Source: Pirellula sp. (GTDB taxonomy: Bacteria > Planctomycetota > Planctomycetia > Pirellulales > Pirellulaceae). From it: a DNA stretch of 64,000 nucleotides. The notes under the pieces are model-generated. The model did not search any database and was not told where the DNA came from. It saw only the letters and a program-made list of their open reading frames with translations. Of the stretch, positions 50,190-63,260 are shown one piece after another; within the stretch, counting starts at the first letter, position 1, and each line of letters opens with the position of its first letter. A program made the position numbers and the translations under genes. The stretch spans positions 1-64,000 of the forward strand of contig JAJTEK010000010.1 of the NCBI GenBank assembly GCA_021299695.1. Reading direction: 5' to 3'.

Positions 50190-50244
50190 CGTCTGGCCGA
50201 CGTTGCCTCCTGTAGGGGTCCCATCGCCGACCGAAGGTTCCGAG

Positions 50245-50793
50245 CTAGTTTCTGCCTTGGATTCGAAATTCCACGAGCTTGGTGAATTGAGCCGATCGGG
50301 AAATCGTCGATCGGCTTTGGGTCGGAACCGTCGCTCCGAGGACTTCGAGTTGCACCTCCAGAGGCTTAAAAGCCGTGGGTTGGGCCGAACCGGCAGGCGA
50401 ATTCTCTGAAGAGATGATTGCCGAATAAGCCCTGGTTTCCCAGATGCCTGATCTTGGCTGATTGCAGATGAATACCGCTTCGGAGCTGTTGTTTTGGACG
50501 GCCCTGGAGGTGAAGAACCAGGCTTGCGACCCGTCTTGGGCGATCGAATCGTGATTCATGGTGCCATTGGCCCTATGCCATTTGACTTCCCCTTTTTTTC
50601 GGTATTGGATTCCGAATTCGATCGACTCTTTGGAGGGCAGTTGGCTCTCGTTGATCGCTTTTGCGCGGATTACGAGCATCGGCAGTCCACTGACGGGATT
50701 GGTCTGAGCCGACGCGACGATCAGAAACATGAGCATCGCGCCGCCGAATCCGCAGCACATCAAATCGAGATAAGAGATAAATCGTCCGTTCAT
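50245..50793 (-). CDS. ExbD/MotB-like single-span protein 2
   Basis: The 182-residue product has a short cytoplasmic start (MNGRFISY) and one membrane span with an Asp at its cytoplasmic edge (YLDLMCCGFGGAMLMFLI). That matches the position of the proton-carrying Asp of ExbD/MotB. A periplasmic domain of about 140 residues follows (IEFGIQYRKKGEVKWHRA, AVFICNQPRSGIWETRAY). No OmpA-type peptidoglycan-binding domain is present. It is the last gene of the chain and its ATG overlaps the preceding stop by four bases (50790-50793). I recognise no named family. Confidence 0.78.
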   Translation of the reverse strand: MNGRFISYLDLMCCGFGGAMLMFLIVASAQTNPVSGLPMLVIRAKAINESQLPSKESIEFGIQYRKKGEVKWHRANGTMNHDSIAQDGSQAWFFTSRAVQNNSSEAVFICNQPRSGIWETRAYSAIISSENSPAGSAQPTAFKPLEVQLEVLGATVPTQSRSTISRSAQFTKLVEFRIQGRN

Positions 50794-51287
50794 TGCTGAG
50801 AGCTCTGGTTGCGAGGCCAGACCTCGATCCATTGGTTGTCTTGAGCATTGACTTGATACGTTTTTTGACGAGCTCCCGCAGGATAAACCTCGACATCCAA
50901 CCGTACGTTGCGCATAGTTCGGATTTTGATCGCTGTTCTTGCTGGGTCCAAAGGTTCGGATGCAAGCAGGATCGCATAATCAACGCCCCAATCGAGATTT
51001 TTCCCTCGGGATCGGTCGAACTTGCCAGCGGGAATTCCGCTGATATGCCAAGCGTCGGCGTTGGGGTTAAAGCAAACGCCTTGATCGGCGCTCACTGGTC
51101 GCACGATGAGCATGAACGGAAATTCGTCGGTTTTCACGGGGTTGGAATTTCCGGAGTTACCGTTCCATTCGAGTCTATTCTGCACTAGCACGGCGATGAA
51201 AAACAGCACTAGGAGCCCTCCGAGTCCATTGGTGATTACATCTACAAAAGCAAGTGATGAGTCGTTTGCGGTTTCCTGATCGATCAT
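50790..51287 (-). CDS. ExbD/MotB-like single-span protein 1
   Basis: The 165-residue product has one N-terminal span with an Asp before it (LAFVDVITNGLGGLLVLFFI), the typical layout of a proton-channel partner of ExbB/MotA. A periplasmic region follows with FMLIVRPVSADQG, WGVDYAILLASEPLDPA, and LDVEVYPAGARQKTY. Only the membrane part resembles the second ExbD/MotB-like protein downstream; their periplasmic parts differ. No OmpA domain is present. Both ends overlap neighbours by ATGA. Confidence 0.78.
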   Translation of the reverse strand: MIDQETANDSSLAFVDVITNGLGGLLVLFFIAVLVQNRLEWNGNSGNSNPVKTDEFPFMLIVRPVSADQGVCFNPNADAWHISGIPAGKFDRSRGKNLDWGVDYAILLASEPLDPARTAIKIRTMRNVRLDVEVYPAGARQKTYQVNAQDNQWIEVWPRNQSSQQ

Positions 51288-52345
51288 CCCCTGCTCCGGA
51301 GCTCATTGCTTTCCCAAGTTCGTAACGCTAGCACTGCGGCTCCACAGATCATCGCGGTAATGAGCCCGATGAGAGTCGTGTCGAAAGCAAATCCAAGGTG
51401 CTTGGTGATGACACTGATTGCTTGTGTTTTGTCCGCAGAGGAGAACAGTCCATCGGCGGTCAAAAGCGCATCTCCCATACCAAGTACCGTCCCGACAAAG
51501 CCAAGGCTAGGAAGCAGTCCGATGAGGAACTCAAACGTACCGTAGGCTTGCCGTCGAGGTGTTTCGGTATCGCTCATTGCGGAGTGGTCTGGGCATTCAA
51601 AGAGCCAATAGCGTTTCGAGACTAGAACCAAGATGAACCACATGAGTAAAACCGTCAGCCACTGCACCCAACCGCTGATTCGCATCAGCGCTCGAATCTG
51701 CGGTCGATTTTCTTCAGAGACGCGATCGATAAGCTTGGCAAGTAACACGTCGATATCCGACGCCTTGATCTGAGCCCCATCTCCTTCGAACAACGCATTT
51801 TTAGAAGTCCAAGTTGGGGAGATCATGCGAAACTCCTCGACAATCATCGAGCCGGATATCGGCTTAATTCCAAGATATAGAAAGGGTAAGCCGGTGCGTT
51901 GTCCGGTCATGTGCTCATCGAGTTTTTTAGTGAATCCGTCTGGAATGGAGTTTTGAACCCCAGCGATCGTCCCGAGAATCACATCCCGCCAAGTGGCGTC
52001 AGCTGGAAGTGTTTTGAGCGATTCTTTTAGAAAAGCTTCCCCTTCAAAGCGTGGGTCACCCCCGATAAGCTTGACGAGTTTCACCGCGCGTTGCTCGGTA
52101 GAGGAGATCGAAGTGATTGGAGTCGCTTTGGCATAGCGATACGTCGCATCAACGCTTCGGGTCAACCAAAGGTTCATCAGTAGATACGTTAGTCCTGCTA
52201 AAATCACGGCGATTCCGAAACTCTTCAGGTCTAAGCCCGATTGGTGGAGCGCAAAGGGCCTGGACTTCAGGACCCATGCGCCCCAATCCGTGATTTGCTT
52301 GTGAATGTCGGTAAGCATGCTCAATCGATTCGGCGGGTTCGTCAT
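51284..52345 (-). CDS. MotA/TolQ/ExbB-family proton channel subunit
   Basis: The 353-residue protein has one early span (about 43-62, FGIAVILAGLTYLLMNLWL), a long soluble domain, and three later spans. The last two carry the ExbB/MotA signature: FLIGLLPSLGFVGTVLGMG and FAFDTTLIGLITAMICGAA, with the conserved Thr pair. Such subunits form a pentamer around two ExbD/MotB helices and turn proton flow into rotation or force. The early span plus large inserted domain is longer than ExbB (about 240) and closer to MotA in size. Its start overlaps the stop of the large-protein gene by ATGA (52342-52345). Confidence 0.82.
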   Translation of the reverse strand: MTNPPNRLSMLTDIHKQITDWGAWVLKSRPFALHQSGLDLKSFGIAVILAGLTYLLMNLWLTRSVDATYRYAKATPITSISSTEQRAVKLVKLIGGDPRFEGEAFLKESLKTLPADATWRDVILGTIAGVQNSIPDGFTKKLDEHMTGQRTGLPFLYLGIKPISGSMIVEEFRMISPTWTSKNALFEGDGAQIKASDIDVLLAKLIDRVSEENRPQIRALMRISGWVQWLTVLLMWFILVLVSKRYWLFECPDHSAMSDTETPRRQAYGTFEFLIGLLPSLGFVGTVLGMGDALLTADGLFSSADKTQAISVITKHLGFAFDTTLIGLITAMICGAAVLALRTWESNELRSRG

Positions 52346-55300
52346 GGTTGGACCTCTGATTCTTCATCTCGATGGAGCGATTGGAGCAATCCAAACCAAC
52401 TTGCCGGGTTGTTTGTACGATTCGCAGTTGCGAAATCTTCAGACATGGCTTTAGAGCCGATCTCCAAGAGGCTCAGGTTCTTGCGTTTCTCTTGCGTGGA
52501 CCACTCCAACGGAAGCAGGTCTTCTGTTTCAGAGTTGCTCCACCGGTCGAACTCACCGCGTTGAAACGCTGCTACTTTCGAATCCAAGGAGCCATGACTT
52601 TGGATGATGTAAAGCATTTCTCCCTTTTGACCTAGGATTCCCTTGGGCCCGATCCAAACCTCGATGTCCCGAATTTCGGGTTTGGTATGGGCAGCTTTGA
52701 GCAACCGACGGCTCAGACGCAATTTATCCGCCAATGCCAATCCGGGTTCCGTATGGAACTCGATTTGGCCGAGAAACGTATCGCTGTTGTTTTTTTCGAT
52801 CAGGGTCAACTTGCCTTCGTCCGCGCTGAACGATGTTGTTGAATACCAGCCGAATATCGAATCGTCTTGATCCAAATAGACCAATCGTGAAAAAGCTTTT
52901 GGATCGCTTCCAAGAAGCTTTAACTGAGAGCCCATCGAGGAGAGATTCTCCGAAGAAAAAAACTGGGAATCGGATTTCCCAAGAATACCCAAATGAAGAT
53001 CGCAACGAGTCAATTGCTGGTCTTTTTCGAGAAACATCGCAGTGGCTGGTAGTTCCCCTTGCGGCTCATGGATGATGTAGTCAAACCAAACGCTTTGCGG
53101 TGAAGACAGACTTCGCGGAGCGTTGGATCGGACTGTCATTTGCCCCCCGCACAGATGGGAAATCCTAAAGTAACGATTGCAATAGTGTTTGAAGAGTTTC
53201 GGACTTAGCGTTGTATTTTCCGGAAGCGGAACCGAGAACGGCTCGGATTGCAGGACTTCATTCGAACTGCTCAATGCGATGTGCCAAGCTGGGTGGATCC
53301 CACCAGGATTCAGCATCAAGAGATGGCTGTGTGCTCGAACATCGACCGGTTTTGAAAATGCTGCATTGGTCAAATACGCCATGTGGTTTTGACCAATATC
53401 GTCGGGGAGTCGATCGCTCGGTATCTCAAACTCGATCGCGTTGGGAATCGATGTTCTGGTACCTACAAGGTTGCCAAGTCTTAGTTCTAACCGCAAGTCG
53501 TTGACGCTTCGATAGATCTCCGGCTCGGGATAACTCGAGGTGCGAAACGGAATCCCCCACCACTCGACGGTGCGACGGCGGAAGTTCTTCGCCGCGTATT
53601 CCTTTTCAACCTCTGTGGCCTCCTGGTAATTGAGCGGTTCCTCAGACGATCTTTCAGCGGCGGAATTCAAGGTGCCCAAGCTGGCTGACCACTCGTCGAA
53701 GTAAAACGGACCCAGTGGGGTCATTTCCATGTTCTCCCACTGAACGGCTTGCTCGGTCGCGACGACCTTTTTGGTCAACGTGAGAAGTTTTCCAACCCCG
53801 ACAACGGTGTACTTCTTTAAATCGGAGCTCGACTGACCGTCCAGAGACATCGATAGTCCGCGAGGCAACCCCAGTCGCCCTCTGAGGTTGAGAGTTCTTT
53901 CTTCGGAAGCCAGCCGTCGATCGACGATCGAGGAAGGCTTGCCCCCTGTTTCAAGCGAGAGTTCCACGACATCGACCCCGAGCAATTCCGCTTGGCTACT
54001 GATGCTCATCGAGTTGGTAGCCCCACTGGCTTTGAGCTTCCCCCCTACCCTTGCTGGAATGGTCGGCAGTCCTGGCAGTCTTCCTCCTCCTTCCAATAGA
54101 GCCTCGAGTTCTTTGCCTTCAAAATCAGCGATCAAGTTGCCCGAAGCGACCCCTGGAGCTTGGGCGATGGTCAAATTGCTGTTGCCTTCAAACCTGGGCG
54201 TCTCCCAAGACCCCTTGATGCTCGCTTCGTTGCTCAAAATCCCCACCCAAGCACGTGGCAACGGACCTGGTGGTACGAAGTGTCCTCCTATTCGCAATGC
54301 AGTCCCTTTATAGCTGAACAAAAGAAACGGTCGTGCGACTGAAAAGTAAGGAGTTGGCAAATCGAGCGGAACGTCCACACCGAACTCTTCAGGTACATGC
54401 AGACCCTCTCGATCCGCGATGATTCCATCGAGTCGAATCGATAACGGGATACTGAAAGCTTCGCCTAAAACAGAAGGGCTCGTTGACGCTCGAAACGACA
54501 TACGAAACGGCTGAAGAGATAACCACCGAACCCCATCGATTGCCTTAGGATCAGGAGAGACCGTGATCAACCCACCGGGCATGTACTTTCCCATCGCATT
54601 GCTGACGGCACCGAGAATTTCCGTTGCGCCGGCTTCGCATGCGTCGAGAAGATCCGAGGTATCCAATCCGGTCCATTCCTGCTCTACGAGCTTGAACGTA
54701 TCGCTCCAGGAAAAGGGGCTGAGGCCCTTTAGTTCCAATTCGTACTTGACGACCGCTTCGGGTTTCGAAGGGTTCCAGGATTGAATCCAGCCTCGGACTT
54801 TTCCGTACTTAGGGTGCTGGTACTCCCCCATTTCCCTCCATTGCGACTCAGATGCAGTTTTGATAGTCCTTTCGCTCAGAAGATCATCGATCAAAGACGG
54901 GATGTCGTTCGAGGCTTTGACCGCGACGGGGCCTAGTTCCAGAGCTGGCCATTCTTCGATGCTTAGGGACAGTGTCAATTGATCGTTCGTTCCATCGTTG
55001 TAGGTTCGAGGTACGGCAAGCTTTTGACTGAGCTTCGGGTATTTTCGCCTAAGATAGGTTTGGACCTGTTGCATAAGGGATTCTTGGATTCCCTGGGCTT
55101 GCTTGGGGGCTTCGGTATCCTTTGGCAAATCGAGCACACTTAGTTTTTCGGGCACGACAACTTCCGGTGTTTGCTTGAGACCATTGAGCGACATGCCAAT
55201 CGGCTCGGGCGGGATGTTCGATTTCGCATTCGAAGTGGTTGCAAACCTGCATCGAATGTCCTCTGTTTTGGTGTCGAATTCGATATCGATCAACCGAATT

Positions 55301-56724
55301 TTGCTGGCGTGTCCCTTGAGTAAAGGTGTCGAGGCAATGAGTTGATCGATGCATCGATTCCGATCGTCTTGCGAAAGCTCGGCTTTCCAAATCGTCGTCA
55401 AATCTCCTTGCGGGTAGCCCTTAATAGTCAAATCACCAAGAGTTGGGTGCTTGAGGACTCCGTTAAGTTGATTTTCGGTCGTCTTGTTCAGTTGCACTGG
55501 ACAAGAACATAGCGACTTGCGAGATGACAAGTGATCGGTGAATTCCGATTGCAGGACCTTGGTCGCTTCGCGTATCTGGATCCGGACATCCTCTTGGCTT
55601 TGTCCATCGAGACGAATTTTGCAGGTGCTCCGCCAAGTGGGGTCTTCCTTGGCCGAGACTCGCAATACCAGCTCGGTTGCTGATGTGCCGTTTTCTTGTC
55701 GGACCTGGATCGAAGTCCCAGGGGTGACCAGCAACCCTGAAGGGGCGCCTAGAGCTACCAAAAACTCCATCGTTGTTTGAGTAAGACACGACAGGTTTTG
55801 ATCCGGAGGGGGCCACTGGGGTCGCCACTCTTTTTGTCCACCGTTCTCCACGAGACTCCAAGGCAAGCAAACGAGTCGCAGACCTGTGTCGTAGATTCGC
55901 GAAGGACTTTCCTCCCCTTGGGATTTCGGGATCCATTTCAGATCGAAATTCGTCGTCGATTTCGAACCCATGTATACCGTATCTTTTACACTTAAACCGA
56001 GGCGTTTTTGAAGAACCAGGGTTGATCCATCCAGCTCCAATCGGATCGCGTTTTGGCGATCCATCGACTGATATTGCGCAAAGATTGGTTGCACGTTTGC
56101 ATCGAAACTCTTAGTGAATCCTTTGACCCACCTATGCCGATCATCGATCCGCGTACCTAGCAATTGGCTCACCAATTGCCTTGTGAAACCCGGCTGCTCT
56201 GGAAAAGAAGGGCATTTGAATCTCGTGATGAGCGAATTGTATTTCGGCAGGTTTGCTATCTTCCAAAGCGCAGCGTCGCGCTCCGCCCTAGCCAATCCCT
56301 GTAGCTTGGCAAGAAGGTCACTTTTTAGGCCTTCAAATGGCTTATCTCGAAGTTTCGTCAAATCGATATTCGCATGAGAATCAAGGGCTTTAATCATCCC
56401 ATTGATTTGACTGAATTCAACGCCGCCAACTCGCAGTAGTTCCGTTAAAGACTTGGCATTCTGATTGCTTGGACTTCGGATCCAAATCGCTAAGTTCTCA
56501 ATCGCTTCCGGTTCGGTGTACTCTGGCTGCCATCGAATTGTATGCTCCAATTCCGCTTTGAGTTCGCCAAGTGATAGGATGTCCTCTCGCTCCATTTTCT
56601 GGCCGTCGAGCTCAAAGGCGTATCTCGGCGGTAGCAACAAAATCGTAAAGGCGATCGATGCGATGGCAACTGCGGTGAGTGCAAGGATCATCCAGCGGGA
56701 TCGGGGAAAGATTAGGTCGCTCAT
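52342..56724 (-). CDS. Large N-anchored extracytoplasmic protein of a proton-channel operon
   Basis: The 1460-residue protein starts with one membrane span (about residues 11-31, MILALTAVAIASIAFTILLL). The rest, about 1430 residues, is probably periplasmic and has no further span. It alternates helical parts (RDKPFEGLKSDLLAKLQGLA) with long beta-rich stretches. Residues about 800-960 read like repeated beta-strand layers (LRIGGHFVPPGPLPRA, NLIADFEGKELEALLEGGGR, LSMSLDGQSSSDL), loosely like AsmA/TamB-type beta-taco proteins; this is an inference only. No enzymatic motif is recognised. No Shine-Dalgarno is seen. It heads the ATGA-coupled chain with the ExbB- and ExbD-like genes, so it is probably the part moved or powered by them. 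Confidence 0.78.
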   Translation of the reverse strand: MSDLIFPRSRWMILALTAVAIASIAFTILLLPPRYAFELDGQKMEREDILSLGELKAELEHTIRWQPEYTEPEAIENLAIWIRSPSNQNAKSLTELLRVGGVEFSQINGMIKALDSHANIDLTKLRDKPFEGLKSDLLAKLQGLARAERDAALWKIANLPKYNSLITRFKCPSFPEQPGFTRQLVSQLLGTRIDDRHRWVKGFTKSFDANVQPIFAQYQSMDRQNAIRLELDGSTLVLQKRLGLSVKDTVYMGSKSTTNFDLKWIPKSQGEESPSRIYDTGLRLVCLPWSLVENGGQKEWRPQWPPPDQNLSCLTQTTMEFLVALGAPSGLLVTPGTSIQVRQENGTSATELVLRVSAKEDPTWRSTCKIRLDGQSQEDVRIQIREATKVLQSEFTDHLSSRKSLCSCPVQLNKTTENQLNGVLKHPTLGDLTIKGYPQGDLTTIWKAELSQDDRNRCIDQLIASTPLLKGHASKIRLIDIEFDTKTEDIRCRFATTSNAKSNIPPEPIGMSLNGLKQTPEVVVPEKLSVLDLPKDTEAPKQAQGIQESLMQQVQTYLRRKYPKLSQKLAVPRTYNDGTNDQLTLSLSIEEWPALELGPVAVKASNDIPSLIDDLLSERTIKTASESQWREMGEYQHPKYGKVRGWIQSWNPSKPEAVVKYELELKGLSPFSWSDTFKLVEQEWTGLDTSDLLDACEAGATEILGAVSNAMGKYMPGGLITVSPDPKAIDGVRWLSLQPFRMSFRASTSPSVLGEAFSIPLSIRLDGIIADREGLHVPEEFGVDVPLDLPTPYFSVARPFLLFSYKGTALRIGGHFVPPGPLPRAWVGILSNEASIKGSWETPRFEGNSNLTIAQAPGVASGNLIADFEGKELEALLEGGGRLPGLPTIPARVGGKLKASGATNSMSISSQAELLGVDVVELSLETGGKPSSIVDRRLASEERTLNLRGRLGLPRGLSMSLDGQSSSDLKKYTVVGVGKLLTLTKKVVATEQAVQWENMEMTPLGPFYFDEWSASLGTLNSAAERSSEEPLNYQEATEVEKEYAAKNFRRRTVEWWGIPFRTSSYPEPEIYRSVNDLRLELRLGNLVGTRTSIPNAIEFEIPSDRLPDDIGQNHMAYLTNAAFSKPVDVRAHSHLLMLNPGGIHPAWHIALSSSNEVLQSEPFSVPLPENTTLSPKLFKHYCNRYFRISHLCGGQMTVRSNAPRSLSSPQSVWFDYIIHEPQGELPATAMFLEKDQQLTRCDLHLGILGKSDSQFFSSENLSSMGSQLKLLGSDPKAFSRLVYLDQDDSIFGWYSTTSFSADEGKLTLIEKNNSDTFLGQIEFHTEPGLALADKLRLSRRLLKAAHTKPEIRDIEVWIGPKGILGQKGEMLYIIQSHGSLDSKVAAFQRGEFDRWSNSETEDLLPLEWSTQEKRKNLSLLEIGSKAMSEDFATANRTNNPASWFGLLQSLHRDEESEVQP

Positions 56725-56763
56725 GGGATGGTTGAGTCGGAGCGTATTTCGATAAATTCGTAG

Positions 56764-56967
56764 TTATTGGTTGGGTAGATCTTCAACCGGATAGGATTTT
56801 GTCGAGATCGGAGGGGTGGGCGTCGCAGAGGGGTCCCGTCCCGATGCGGTATTTGTGCCGCTGCTCGGCGTTTGACTTGTGCCACTCTGGCCGTTTCCGC
56901 AACCGGTGACCCCTAAGAAAAGAAAGATGGCCAAAGCGCAGAGAAAGAATGTTTCGACGCGTTTCAT
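56764..56967 (-). CDS. Small lipoprotein
   Basis: The 67-residue product has a basic start (MKRVETF), a hydrophobic core, and lipobox LGVTGCG (Cys at about 22). A Ser/Thr/Pro/Gly-rich tail ends in SYPVEDLPNQ. A start at 57003 would add 12 residues, but the ATG at 56967 fits a lipoprotein signal better. It lies 39 bases before the large-protein gene on the same strand and may be part of that operon. Function is unknown. Confidence 0.6.
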   Translation of the reverse strand: MKRVETFFLCALAIFLFLGVTGCGNGQSGTSQTPSSGTNTASGRDPSATPTPPISTKSYPVEDLPNQ

Positions 56968-57543
56968 TTGCAGGTCCCGTATCTTGTATTTCGAAAACAG
57001 CACGTTTCGTCATGCCGATCATGTCGAAATCATGTGGAGACCTACAAGCGTTTGCAGGCCGTCGTGGTCAGTACGACGACCATCTACGCGGTTTTCGTGG
57101 CAATGGAATCGCCTCGCATTGGAATTGGTGGAGCCTAACAACCGAAAACCCGAAGACGCCTCCGCTTGCGCGTCGAAATGGTAGATCGATTGTCCCCAAT
57201 CGATCGGAGCCTGAAGCCACCGTAGCCAGTGTGAGTAACAGCCGAAAAAACCTAAGGCGCCCCCGCGTGCGCGCCGTGCCGAGCCATTGGGGACAATGGC
57301 TCTACACTCGATGCCAAAGATGAAAATTCAGGACCGTTTTTGGGCAACCTGAACGTTTTTCTGGCAACCTATTCTGCTTTTTGCAGTCTATACATTAGGA
57401 GCGATAGCAAAATCGAGTTTCCTCGATGAATTTGACCTAGCACTCCTTTTTGGCACCGCATTTGCTTATTTTGTTCGTCCAAGAACTGGCAAGAGTGCCA
57501 AATCAGACCGAAACGAGCCGAGAGCACCAGGAGATGTCCGAAC
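56968..57543. other. Divergent region upstream of the proton-channel operon and algH
   Basis: It holds the REP-like hairpins at 57136-57297. No tRNA or small RNA gene was recognised and open frames here look random. The stretch 57310-57420 is A/T-richer and may contain promoters. Confidence 0.4.
57136..57297. repeat. Two REP-like hairpin units 100 bases apart, with a 12-bp inverted repeat
   Basis: Two related 40-base units start with TAACA at 57136 and 57236. Each contains a short GC stem: GACGC/GCGTC in the first and GGCGC/GCGCC in the second, so paired positions changed together. ATTGTCCCCAAT (57189-57200) and its exact complement (57286-57297) enclose the second unit. Confidence 0.7.
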
Positions 57544-58170: not shown

Positions 58171-58589
58171 GGGGTAATCCTCAAATCCGAACGCAAGCCC
58201 CCCTGCCCTGCTCGGCTTCGAATTGGCGGGCAACTTCTTGCGGGAAATGCACCTTGTAGGGTTTTTTTCTTCTGCCCTGGGCATCGATCTAGCCGAAAAA
58301 GATTATGAGAGTGGGATTTTGCCTCCCGAAGGAACTTTATCGGTTTTGACGCCTCTAAAGTCCTGAGGCGGTAGGTTTCGAACCTTTTGCAAGCCGAAAC
58401 TGCTTGCGAGGCCCCTGTGTCCGGATAGGCCGAAAGTAACATTTCGATCGAAAATAGGGGTCTTAGCGATTAGTAGGTTGAATTCAGGAGTGGGCCTAAC
58501 TACTTTCAAAGTCCGCACGGGGTTTGGCTGAGACGTTGAGCCAAGAGTCCCCGTAGCTAGTCACTTTACTGCATATGGTGGAAGTTTCG
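58171..58589. other. Leader/intergenic region of the giant surface protein
   Basis: The 419 bases contain a hairpin at 58518-58553 (CGGGG-T-TTGGCT ... AGCCAA-GAGT-CCCCG) ending about 37 bases before the start. A smaller stem, GCAAGC/GCTTGC, lies near 58390-58410. A long structured leader is plausible. No known riboswitch class was recognised and no open frame is supported. Confidence 0.4.
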
Positions 58590-61500
58590 ATGAGCGCTTC
58601 GCAAAATCGCAGAGTCCGGGAACGTAAGAACATTCAATCTTCCAAGAAGAGTTTTTTGAGCCGCATGCTGCGGCTCGAGTCGCTTGAGCGCCGCGAACTG
58701 ATGGCCGCGGACTTCGCTCCCTTTCACAATTATCTTGCCTCGACGGATGTCGACGGGGACTTCAAAATCTCCCCCCTCGATGCGTTGATGGTGATCAATC
58801 AAATCAACACGACGGGTTCGGGTTCCTTGGCAGGCCGCCAAGCACCGACGACCCGAGTCGGTCTTGTCGATGCCGACGGCGACAACGCACTCTCGCCTCT
58901 CGATGCGCTCTTGGTGATCAACTCGATCAACCGCGGCGAAGGGGTCGGTGAACTCGCAGAAATCAAGTACGAGTTCTATGCGCTGAACGATAACGGGACC
59001 TTGGGCGCTAACCTGGACCCAAACCCCAACGACTTCGTGTACGAAGCGAACGTTAGCACCGGTCAGAAGTTCGTCATTCGGACCTTGATGGCCGACCTTC
59101 GTGGCAATCCCTCAGGGATCTTCAGCGCCTACCATGATCTAAACTTCACCAACCGAGATGGCACATCGGGCGAGAAGATCCAGCTCCAATGGTCGGAGTA
59201 CAATTCGCTGAAGCTTCGACAAAGCGACCCGAATGGTACGATTGGCGGTAGTTTCAGGCTAGCCTACGGGTCGGAGATCACGTCGGTGATTCCGATCGCA
59301 ACGACCTCTCCACGACCAGGGGTAACGATCCCGAGCAAATCGGGGACGGCTGACAACATTCGGACCGCCCTAGAAGGCCTTCCCGGAATCGGAGCCGGCA
59401 ACGTCGTTGTCAATGTCAACGAGATCGATCCGGATCCAGGGTTCAACTTCGACATCTTCTTCCGGAACGACAAAGCTCGCACCGACATGCCCAACGCGTC
59501 GATCGCCGAGAACAACCTGACGGCGACCCTCGGGGTTATCAACCCGACGATCACATTCCAAGACGCTCCTTCGCCGAGCCAAACCGTTGTGGCCCGGGCC
59601 GCGATGAACTACAAGCCGATCACCACTCAGTTCCCGTTGTACGTCAATGGACCGAACGGTGTGTTGGACGAGTCGTCTGCTGCCACCGGCAAACGAACTG
59701 TGAAGAACCTCGGTAGCTTCTCGAACTCCAGTGCACCGATTCCAAGTGCCTCGGCATCGAACTTCTTCGGGATCGTCGATACCGCATTCCGAGCAGGTGC
59801 ATCGGGTACCGTCGATTTGGCTGCGACCGTTTCGCAGCTGCCACCTCCAGGAAGTCAGGGTGAAAACCTCGGTATCGCTCTGTACAACGCCACCGGCGTG
59901 TACTTGACCTCCAGCCAAGTGATCTTGCCGACGGCAGTGATCAACATCCAAGACCGCCTGACTGCGGTCAACGATGTCTTTACGATCAACGAAGATGCGC
60001 CGGTCAATAGCTACAACGTCGTGGCCAACGACGTCGACCGATTTGGAACCTCCAGAGGTATCATCTCGGTCACCCAGCCGACCGAAGGTGGAACGGTTTC
60101 GTTTGATGGGGTCGGTACGGCCCAGACCATCCGGTTTACACCGGCTGCCAACTACAACGGACCTGTAACGTTCACCTACACGATACGCAACAACATCAAC
60201 GATGTCGCGACCGGTACGGTCACGATGAACATCACAGCGGTCAACGATGCACCGATCGTGATCAATACAGCCTTCAGTGTCACCGAAGACCCTGCATCGC
60301 CCCTGCTGATCGCTCCTACGGATGTCTTCTCGCCTGGACCAGCCAACGAGTCGGCCCAAGTGATCACCTTGTCGATCGTTACCCCACCACCTGCGAACCA
60401 GGGAACAGCGGTGATCAATGCCTCGGGCATTCTCGAATTCACCCCTGCGGCGAACTTTGTCGGCACGGTGATCATGGTGGTTCGTGGTACCGACAACGGT
60501 ACACCGGCGCAATCGACCAACGCCACGCTGACCGTAACGGTCAGTGCCGTCAACGACGCACCGGTGATTGTGCAAACGACCTTCAGCGTTGCCGAAGATT
60601 CTGCAACACCGCTGGTGATTCTGCCGACCCAAATTTTCGCACCAGGCCCGGCCAACGAATCGGCACAGACCGTAACGCTCTCGCTCGTTAGCACTCCAGA
60701 GCCCTCTCAAGGTGTTGCGACGATCCTTGCCAACGGGTCCCTGCAGTTCGTTCCCGCCCTTAACTTCTTCGGTCCGGTGAGCTTTGTCGTTCGCGGCACG
60801 GACAACGGAACTCCAGCTCTTTCGACCGATGCGACCTTGACGATCAACGTCACTCCGGTCAATGATGGTCCGATCGCTGTCGACGATACCGGTTCGAGTG
60901 CTCGATTCAATGTGATCGGCCTGACCGGAACGCCGACTCCGCTGGATGTGATGCGCAACGACAGTGCTGGTCCCAATGAATCCAGCATCGATACGATCAG
61001 GATCCGTTCGGTGACTACGACCACCTTGGGAGCAACCGTAACGCTTAACGCCGACCGAACCCGGGTGATCTACACGCCACCGACGACAGCCGTCAACCAA
61101 ACCGATTTCTTTAGCTATACGATCGAAGACAACGCCGGGCTGACAAGCACGGCTCGCACCGAAGTCTTCATCCTCCCGCCGACTTTCCCATTCGCAGTCG
61201 ATGACCAATTCTCGACGAGCGAAAAGACCGTCGATACCAGCTATCCGATCAATGTCACGGCCAACGACTTCGTCAACGAGGGATTCGTCAGCCAACTGCT
61301 CTCGATCGTTCAGCAACCTCAACCTGGCAAGGGGACTGCAACCGTCGTCGGAACCGACACACCGAACGATCCGAGCGATGACCGCGTCGTTTACACCGCT
61401 CCTGCTCACGTCAATGGCGGACCGATCTTGGTGGTCTACCAAATGACCGATTCCAAGCCCGGTAGCGTACCCGTCAACGCAACCTTGACCATTCAAATTT

Positions 61501-63260
61501 CCGAAGTCAACGATCCGCCTGCACCGTTCGGAAAGAACGTTGCGGTCAACGAAGACACGACTTTGGATATCGATGGCCAAGCGTTCACCAGCGACATCAG
61601 CCGCGGTCCTTTCGAGGACAGCCAAACGCTGACCATCACCGATGTTCAATTGCTTACAGCCGGTTCGGGCACCGTGTCGCTAGTCAACGGCAGCATTCGA
61701 TTCGTTCCATCGGCGAACTTCAACGGTGTTGCGGAAGTCCTCTACACCGTTCGAGATAACGGTACAACCGCCGGCGTGCTCGATCCGAAGACCGCAAGCG
61801 CAACGCTGACGATCTCGGTGTCGGCTGTCAATGACGCACCGATCACGGTTGCAAAGACCTTGCCAACCCCGCCAACGGTTTACTTGGAAGGCAATACCAC
61901 AACCATCCCTATAGCCGACGTGATCGCAGGCGATAGGCCAGGTCCAGACAACGAATCGGCTCAGTCGGTCTCGTTGGTGGAAATCGTCGGATCGCTGACC
62001 ACGGCCAAAGGTGGTACGATCGTCCGCCAAGGTAGCAACCTGATTTACACACCGCCTCAGTTCTACAATAGCCTCGTCGATGGACAGGACTCCTTTGTCT
62101 ACAGCATCGTCGACAATGGGACTCCGGCCCTGAGTGCGACCGGCACCGTCAACTTGTACATCAGCGAAGTCAATAACCCTCCGGTTGCAGACGACCTCTC
62201 GCGAGACGCCTTTGCCGGTGTGAACACCGTCATCGACCTGACGGCCGCTCTGGATGCGATGAACAAGGGAGCTCCGAACGAGTCCGGGCAAAAGCTCAAG
62301 ATCACCGATCTGTTTCTCCCAGCCACTTATCCAGGCACCTTGACGCTCAACCCAAATGGAACGTCGATCACTTACTTCGCTCCTCTTGGAACCAACGAAT
62401 CCTTCACGTTCCAATACCGAGTGGAAGACAACGGAACGACCGCTGGTAATCCAGATCCACTTGCGGATGTCGGAAACTTTACGATCAAGGTCCTGCCGTT
62501 CCAGCCCAGTTCGATCAAGGGACTCATCTACGTCGATGACAACTTCAACGGAGTCTACGACAACAACCCAGCAGGGGCCGTCGAGCTTCCTGTCGGTGGT
62601 GTCGAGGTGACCCTCAGCTACGCAGATCCATCGAATCCGGCCAATACGATCCGCATGGTCGAGATGACCGATTCAGATGGATCATACGACTTCGAACTGT
62701 TGCCCCCAGGCACCTACACCGTCAGCTATGTCAATCCAGCGTCGATGATCGAATCCGGCTCGGCAATTCGCTCGCAGACCTTCACGATCAATCCTCCGGG
62801 TGGTCAAAACCTCGTGCGGCAGTTCCCGGTCTTGGGTATCAACCCATCCTACGGTTCAGCCATCGAGTACTTCGCATCGAGCTTGTACCTCAAGGATGCG
62901 ACCCTCCGATCTCGCGGAATGTACGCGATGGTTAACTCGAACTCCGGATACTCCGAGTGGACCTCTCGCAAAGACGGATTCGAAGGAGACCGATTCCACG
63001 AAGTCGTCCTCAGCGCCGATGGAACGCGAGCCTTGCTCACGGCCGTTCGAGGCAACGGACAAGTCTTCACGGCGGTCTTGGTCGAGAAAAAGCAATTCCT
63101 GAAGATTCCTGCTGGAACGGGACTCCAATACGTTCGAATCCTGGCCAGCTCCTCGGACTTGGTCTGGAACCCTGTCGATATCAACAACCCACAGCTTTCG
63201 GCTCCAGGTTACCTCGACGCGGTCGACAACTACTTCACCCAAGAAGGCTGGAACGTCTAG
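58590..63260 (+). CDS. Giant surface protein with N-terminal dockerin-like repeats and cadherin-like domains
   Basis: The 1556-residue protein opens with a basic stretch and the planctomycete LEPR-type export motif (RLESLERRELMAADF, about residues 29-43). Two dockerin-like calcium loops follow (DVDGDFKISPLDALMVINQI and DADGDNALSPLDALLVINSI). After about 300 residues there are seven or more tandem cadherin-like/VCBS-type repeats marked by VNDAP and a following ED (about 450-1300), then an SdrD B-like domain (IKGLIYVDDNFNGVYD; TDSDGSYDFELLPPGTY) near residue 1310. The C-terminal 150 residues are unassigned. The ATG at 58590 has GGAAG upstream; 58575 is also possible. The protein is probably exported and calcium-binding, perhaps adhesive. 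Confidence 0.87.
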   Translation: MSASQNRRVRERKNIQSSKKSFLSRMLRLESLERRELMAADFAPFHNYLASTDVDGDFKISPLDALMVINQINTTGSGSLAGRQAPTTRVGLVDADGDNALSPLDALLVINSINRGEGVGELAEIKYEFYALNDNGTLGANLDPNPNDFVYEANVSTGQKFVIRTLMADLRGNPSGIFSAYHDLNFTNRDGTSGEKIQLQWSEYNSLKLRQSDPNGTIGGSFRLAYGSEITSVIPIATTSPRPGVTIPSKSGTADNIRTALEGLPGIGAGNVVVNVNEIDPDPGFNFDIFFRNDKARTDMPNASIAENNLTATLGVINPTITFQDAPSPSQTVVARAAMNYKPITTQFPLYVNGPNGVLDESSAATGKRTVKNLGSFSNSSAPIPSASASNFFGIVDTAFRAGASGTVDLAATVSQLPPPGSQGENLGIALYNATGVYLTSSQVILPTAVINIQDRLTAVNDVFTINEDAPVNSYNVVANDVDRFGTSRGIISVTQPTEGGTVSFDGVGTAQTIRFTPAANYNGPVTFTYTIRNNINDVATGTVTMNITAVNDAPIVINTAFSVTEDPASPLLIAPTDVFSPGPANESAQVITLSIVTPPPANQGTAVINASGILEFTPAANFVGTVIMVVRGTDNGTPAQSTNATLTVTVSAVNDAPVIVQTTFSVAEDSATPLVILPTQIFAPGPANESAQTVTLSLVSTPEPSQGVATILANGSLQFVPALNFFGPVSFVVRGTDNGTPALSTDATLTINVTPVNDGPIAVDDTGSSARFNVIGLTGTPTPLDVMRNDSAGPNESSIDTIRIRSVTTTTLGATVTLNADRTRVIYTPPTTAVNQTDFFSYTIEDNAGLTSTARTEVFILPPTFPFAVDDQFSTSEKTVDTSYPINVTANDFVNEGFVSQLLSIVQQPQPGKGTATVVGTDTPNDPSDDRVVYTAPAHVNGGPILVVYQMTDSKPGSVPVNATLTIQISEVNDPPAPFGKNVAVNEDTTLDIDGQAFTSDISRGPFEDSQTLTITDVQLLTAGSGTVSLVNGSIRFVPSANFNGVAEVLYTVRDNGTTAGVLDPKTASATLTISVSAVNDAPITVAKTLPTPPTVYLEGNTTTIPIADVIAGDRPGPDNESAQSVSLVEIVGSLTTAKGGTIVRQGSNLIYTPPQFYNSLVDGQDSFVYSIVDNGTPALSATGTVNLYISEVNNPPVADDLSRDAFAGVNTVIDLTAALDAMNKGAPNESGQKLKITDLFLPATYPGTLTLNPNGTSITYFAPLGTNESFTFQYRVEDNGTTAGNPDPLADVGNFTIKVLPFQPSSIKGLIYVDDNFNGVYDNNPAGAVELPVGGVEVTLSYADPSNPANTIRMVEMTDSDGSYDFELLPPGTYTVSYVNPASMIESGSAIRSQTFTINPPGGQNLVRQFPVLGINPSYGSAIEYFASSLYLKDATLRSRGMYAMVNSNSGYSEWTSRKDGFEGDRFHEVVLSADGTRALLTAVRGNGQVFTAVLVEKKQFLKIPAGTGLQYVRILASSSDLVWNPVDINNPQLSAPGYLDAVDNYFTQEGWNV

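Follow-up and report, generated by a model that had tools for sequence, protein, structure and literature searches.

The closest described relatives of the locus reported here combine one channel protein with two axle-type proteins. In Myxococcus xanthus, the MotA-like protein AglR is found with two MotB-like proteins, AglQ and AglS, and it is not known whether these two form a heterodimer or homodimers (PMC9389320). In clusters of the Planctomycetes-Verrucomicrobia-Chlamydiae (PVC) group, tolQ is accompanied by a heterologous pair of tolR genes, a vWA transducer and a TPR protein, as set out in section 8 of PMC12204202; the same paper reports the vWA transducer family in Planctomycetes too. 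Here we describe a four-gene operon from Pirellula sp., found in the first 64,000 nucleotides of contig JAJTEK010000010.1 (assembly GCA_021299695.1; this whole stretch is called the window below), which encodes a channel protein (the A subunit), two small membrane proteins (B1 and B2) and a large protein. The operon is real, conserved and rare. We propose that it encodes an envelope motor of the MotA/TolQ/ExbB type, driven by ions, in which two proteins form the axle and the large protein is the dedicated output protein, and we regard this reading, taken as a whole, as probable though far from secure.

The positions of the genes are collected in Table 1. An earlier note on this DNA had described four coupled genes with an ATGA overlap of four bases at all three junctions (52342-52345, 51284-51287 and 50790-50793), and on re-reading the open reading frames (ORFs) and junctions, all of these are found where that note had put them. 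For B2 the listed ORF begins further upstream, at 50832, while the start in the overlap, at 50793, is the one kept in the nearest relative. The same note had concluded from the overlaps that the proteins are made in fixed stoichiometry, which is unsupported, because overlaps do not imply it and a motor of 5:1:1 or 5:2 composition would need unequal amounts. A small putative lipoprotein ORF lies 39 bases before the large gene. Scans for promoters and terminators gave no excess over shuffled sequences.

Table 1. Coordinates in the window of the operon, its features and the segment that carries it.
Feature	Position	Strand	Description
Large-protein gene	52342..56724	-	1460 aa; ORF
Anchor helix of large protein	56632..56688	-	residues 13-31; no His
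A subunit gene	51284..52345	-	353 aa; MotA/TolQ/ExbB family
A loop, helices 1-2	51671..52159	-	163 residues; from alignment
B1 gene	50790..51287	-	165 aa; ORF, one transmembrane helix
B2 gene	50245..50793	-	182 aa; ORF, one transmembrane helix
Small putative lipoprotein	56764..56967	-	67 aa; lipobox VTGC
Segment with four genes and lipoprotein	50201..57176	.	present here, ~25 bp in sister species G010; blastn edges

The A subunit is the only one of the four proteins with a Pfam match above cut-off. PF01618 (MotA_ExbB) matches the window protein at 3e-8 with 33.9 bits, against a cut-off of 22.9, which bears out the ExbB/MotA signature noticed earlier, and the same family is found above cut-off in the channels of all five genomes that make up the operon set: the window's own, G013, G482, G536 and G877 (locus L041, from Planctomycetota REEB503, is taken as the G013 locus). 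Hydropathy gives four transmembrane helices in the A subunits of the window, L041, G536 and G877. Four residues, T286, D322, T323 and T324, are invariant in all five channels, so that the Thr of both pore helices (T286 and T324) is kept throughout; we take these two to be equivalent to T148 and T181 of ExbB. More widely, GTV and TT are present in all 38 aligned A-type proteins. The C-terminal tail is short, at 11-40 residues in the five channels, and the loop between helices 1 and 2 is long, at 152-163 residues in all five by alignment. By homology with the MotA/ExbB fold, this loop is predicted to be periplasmic. In Serratia, ExbB has a periplasmic extension that interacts with a dedicated transducer, HasB (PMC9008036), and this provides a precedent for a loop of A that acts as an arm; extra domains, many of them without known function, are also possible in the A subunits of generic ion transporters (PMC12505986).

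In both small proteins, hydropathy and alignments agree with the earlier description of one transmembrane span with an Asp. The membrane Asp of B1 is Asp16 (codon 51240-51242) and is invariant in 5/5 genomes; that of B2 is Asp10 (codon 50764-50766) and is invariant in 4/4. The helices of B1 and B2 are mutually homologous (hhalign probability 95, E 1.7e-8), and their periplasmic parts are not visibly homologous to each other.

The expectation that the four genes would stay together in related genomes holds. The order large-A-B1 is kept in all five, which represent two families, and B2 comes next in the four whose contig continues, the G482 contig ending inside B1. In G013 the large gene is split across two contigs: its C-terminal piece in L041 is 41% identical to the window protein and the N-terminal piece on the other contig 48%, with A at 65%, B1 at 56% and B2 at 70%. 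At the other extreme is G877, from a different family within the order, whose large protein and A subunit are only 17% and 27% identical to those of the window. ATGA occurs at all three junctions in L041, the nearest relative, and the full four-base triple recurs only there. Elsewhere the spacing varies: G536 has overlaps of 11, 8 and 4 bases, G877 two gaps (14 and 37 bases) and then an 8-base overlap, and G482 two gaps (32 and 10 bases), ATG starts being chosen for the last two genomes; it is therefore the close packing that is conserved and not the exact four bases. No neighbour other than the motor set is common to all five genomes in the contigs read.

The operon is also rare. Searches with the large protein found it in 2 of 60 relatives, in 4 of 241 genomes of the family, in 3 of 366 in a sample of the order (window, G536 and G877) and in 2 of 392 in a sample of the phylum (the window and a fragment in G096), these samples overlapping one another and many member genomes being incomplete. 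A B2 profile matched 1/392 in the phylum sample, this being the window's own genome, and a scan of public genomes with A, confirmed by tblastn, left one locus, L041, among 34 pattern matches. The fragment in G096, a distant member of the phylum, is a relative of the large protein (L042 558-1445, near the contig start), which scores 6.6e-88 with a profile that contains it and 1.2e-6 with one that does not. It adjoins what look by eye like transposase remains, no motor gene is seen beside it at the contig edge, and its contig carries no A-type match, one being found on another contig; a search of 59 relatives of G096 returned only the fragment itself. It was not counted as an operon.

The large proteins are 1460-1672 residues long. 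Hydropathy shows one transmembrane helix, which is preceded by a positively charged N-terminus in all of them, and what follows the helix is predicted to lie in the periplasm; in the window protein this amounts to ~1430 residues. None of the five has a Pfam match above cut-off, including to TonB/TolA, vWA and AsmA/TamB-type families. NCBIfam, searched with the window proteins only, gave weak matches far under its cut-offs, and together with PADLOC and PHROGs it offered nothing convincing for the large protein, B1 or B2; PHROGs gave no match at all for the window proteins or the large protein of G536, and a plasmid collection searched with the large protein gave none. Thus no significant match points to a known family with another role, and the large protein lies outside the families searched. 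Profile searches against solved structures, made with alignments of the large protein, A, B1 and B2, gave chance-like results, the best of which (0.0061, to the ribosome factor MRT4) was judged to be chance.

The length and N-terminal anchoring of the large protein would also suit a bridge, powered by the proton-motive force (PMF), that conveys lipids or other hydrophobic molecules; a long β-groove like that of TamB/AsmA would span the space between the inner and outer membranes, and flow along it would be driven by the motor. A crude propensity count, which is a weak method, has residues 240-330, 330-560 and 690-1060 leaning to strand (0.24-0.26), in favour of this reading. By the same count, residues 35-240 lean to helix (0.38) and strand is only 0.08-0.14 in residues 560-690, 1060-1230 and 1230-1460. 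Moreover, the AsmA/TamB-type families are among those that found no match in Pfam, and an AlphaFold model of residues 690-1020 alone has a predicted local distance difference test score (pLDDT) of 32.1, too low to be usable. We consider a lipid bridge highly doubtful.

The motor can be placed among other planctomycete motors. The window's own genome holds seven MotA_ExbB loci, and a search with A matched 52 of 60 relatives, in all cases outside the window and G013 only across the channel helices. The motif AFDTT is found in 33/33 A subunits, namely those of the operon (4), of a group of ~290 residues (5) and of a group of ~500 residues (24), and in none of five ExbB-like proteins of the own genome. 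In a tree, the four operon A subunits form a clade (ultrafast bootstrap, UFBoot, 100) that is sister to the ~290-residue group (UFBoot 92). Of the five loci of this sister group (L021, L026, L030, L038 and L035), four have two B genes whose products carry an Asp helix, the contig of the fifth ending, and one A with two B proteins is therefore a wider planctomycete habit. Their A subunits are the closest in the tree and share AFDTT with the operon, and their B proteins have a similar Asp helix, although hhalign matches the helices only weakly (probability 45, 6 and 53). The sister A subunits read by eye as having a short helix 1-2 loop, against 152-163 residues in the operon, and the neighbours differ, with a GYF-like membrane protein (named by eye) and a protein of 971-977 residues upstream. 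It is the long A loop and the large protein that set this operon apart. No description of the sister motors was found in the literature examined.

A further motor with an A subunit of ~450-580 residues is widespread in planctomycetes (L081 1950-6595 on contig C110 of the own genome, where it has two B genes). One of its B proteins has Ala where the membrane Asp would be expected, as FPFLAVLLC or FPFMAVLLC, in 22 of 24 loci, the other two giving no match. The other B protein that the own genome encodes for this motor has the Asp (SFMDTIANLVG). It would be unusual for an axle to carry a single Asp.

These observations suggest how the operon might work. Family membership and the conserved residues indicate that the unit is very probably an ion-driven motor. 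The constant gene neighbourhood argues, with nearly as much force, for the large protein as the dedicated partner of this motor. That the large protein is itself moved is suggested by analogy with TonB, TolA and HasB, and we see this as evenly balanced. In the mechanism that we propose, five A subunits would surround one B1 and one B2, and protons (or Na+) passing both Asp residues would turn the B pair. The long loop of A and the B domains would contact the large protein in the periplasm, and the large protein would transmit the movement towards the cell wall or outer membrane, where in some species the small lipoprotein may take part. The role of the unit is accessory and not core. A bolder version, a new class of PMF-powered trans-envelope machine in which a motor that has two distinct axle proteins and periplasmic arms on its channel would directly drive an anchored bridge of 1500 residues, for instance one for lipids or other hydrophobic cargo passing between the membranes, is in our view speculative and unlikely.

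Several observations weigh against the motor proposal. The anchor helix lacks, in all five large proteins, the SHLS-type His (a motif given in section 8 of PMC12204202) through which TolA and TonB couple to their motors, and what links the proposed partners is gene neighbourhood only. Neither ExbD nor MotB/OmpA is matched in Pfam by B1 or B2 of the window, L041, G536 and G877 (the partial B1 of G482 being excluded from the scan), and the first A helix of G482 falls below the hydropathy cut-off. The structure predictions do not help: besides the low score for residues 690-1020 of the large protein, a single-chain AlphaFold model of A, made with the window protein and its L041 relative, has a pLDDT of 42.9. 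The A-subunit tree is built on 86 columns, omits G877 and is weak at its deeper nodes, and the lipoprotein is present in only three of the five genomes, none being seen in G536 or G877.

The missing coupling motif, and the fact that co-occurrence is the sole link among the proteins, would also fit a large protein that is a fixed scaffold, a wall anchor or a regulator of the channel, the moved partner being encoded elsewhere or the unit being a plain gated ion channel; the periplasmic loop of the channel could then bind other partners. Against this, the large protein is retained just as consistently as the motor genes across the five genomes, which share no other neighbour. We hold a scaffold or regulator to be unlikely, if not far-fetched, and retain the motor with a dedicated output protein as the preferred reading.

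The segment that carries the operon and the lipoprotein gene is replaced by ~25 bp in the sister species G010, whose neighbouring proteins are 86-99% identical to those of the window and where the Gfo/Idh and AlgH-like genes adjoin. Loss in G010 and separate gains both fit this distribution. The right edge of the segment falls in partly repeated sequence (57151-57175, one copy in the window and two near copies in G010), and excision driven by the repeat is possible. The operon, with a G+C content of 0.50-0.53, is slightly poorer in G+C than most of the DNA around it (0.515-0.576), which is weak evidence. In the more distant G013, accA, a membrane protein gene and the Gfo/Idh gene flank the operon on the same side as in the window, and a SLOG-domain gene (L041 3103-5178; LD_cluster2, 3e-46) lies between the operon and the Gfo/Idh gene. 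What follows the Gfo/Idh gene is different in G014 and in G001; an island hotspot was considered here and rejected, since G001 holds core genes there (rpsP- and ffh-like by eye) and rearrangement therefore explains the difference.

Such patchy occurrence (4 of 241 genomes in the family, and the short replacement in the sister species) would be in keeping with an anti-phage system that works like Zorya, with an envelope PMF motor and a sensor. Some of the neighbours point the same way. The N-terminal half of the SLOG-domain protein looks TIR-like by eye, and a kinase near the G482 operon matches many kinase profiles in PADLOC, the best being PD-T4-6 at 1.5e-67. PADLOC profiles for ZorA also match the window A subunit weakly (best 1.3e-4). 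These ZorA matches are limited to the common channel helices, and the kinase is taken as a general signalling gene, its domain being too common to count as defence. Among 10 flanking proteins from the five genomes, eight have no PADLOC match at 0.01, the others being this kinase and a DUF1598 protein of G877 with a weak AbiEi match (1.9e-4). Neighbours differ among the genomes, and most of the mass of the unit is predicted to lie outside the cytoplasm. ZorA of Zorya has a long cytoplasmic tail. The channel helices of ZorAB and of the operon are alike, by weak profile matches, but the operon channel has no such tail and its B proteins have no OmpA/MotB match. No profile for the Zorya effectors (ZorC/D, ZorE) was found in the 10 flanking proteins, not every neighbouring ORF being scanned, and apart from the ZorA matches to the channel helices no Zor profile was found in the SLOG neighbour or the operon proteins scanned. 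The distinction from Zorya drawn in the earlier note therefore stands, and we judge an anti-phage role decidedly unlikely.

Other features of the surroundings may be recorded. Counterparts of the lipoprotein occur in G013 and G482; in G013, one ORF of 341 residues (L052 3677-4702) runs from a PEP-CTERM-like protein, so read by eye, into the lipoprotein before the large gene, which may reflect a lost stop or a wrongly chosen start. An ECF-sigma-like gene (extracytoplasmic function; by-eye reading) adjoins the G482 kinase, and the gene after the G877 operon (L087 8903-11296) scores 2.3e-13 against the hydrazine synthase alpha middle domain family. In the window, positions 58575-63260 encode a secreted-looking protein of 1561 residues whose start looks by eye like a dockerin and which contains repeated stretches resembling cadherin.

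How, then, does the motor with its large protein compare with described systems? ExbB-ExbD-TonB and TolQRA have a channel of the same family and a B helix with Asp. In contrast to them, the operon has no TonB/TolA-like protein, two B proteins without an ExbD match in Pfam and a long A loop, and the large protein, having no His in its anchor helix, agrees with the separation from Ton/Tol that had been noticed from the sequence. AglRQ/S resembles the operon in having one MotA-like and two MotB-like proteins (PMC9389320), a likeness that would also suit a drive for surface movement or adhesion as in gliding Myxococcus. AglRQ/S, however, has gliding partners (a relative of the large protein was not sought there), and no Glt/Agl partners were noticed among the neighbouring ORFs, no search aimed at them having been made; such a drive seems to us very improbable. 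The tolQ/tolR-pair clusters of the PVC group are like the operon in having one A and two B proteins with an anchored partner. Their partners (PMC12204202, section 8) all have the vWA fold and many have a helix with SHLS/His, whereas here the partner has no Pfam match and its anchor helix no His.

No description of the four-gene set was seen in the literature searched, which consisted of open-licence PMC papers. The view of the earlier note that no described system has this layout applies to the large protein; a channel with two B proteins has been published, in AglRQ/S and the PVC clusters, and is seen in other planctomycete motors too. Section 8 of PMC12204202 states that a diversity of PMF-driven trans-envelope systems is still to be discovered, and the operon contributes a candidate whose partner falls outside the families searched and whose A subunit brings periplasmic arms of its own. 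The sister species without the segment offers a natural comparison, and the two B proteins make the question of a heterodimeric or homodimeric axle testable, as for AglQ and AglS. Its motor part follows a known pattern, that of AglRQ/S and of the PVC tolQ with its tolR pair; for the partner, the libraries searched gave nothing significant.

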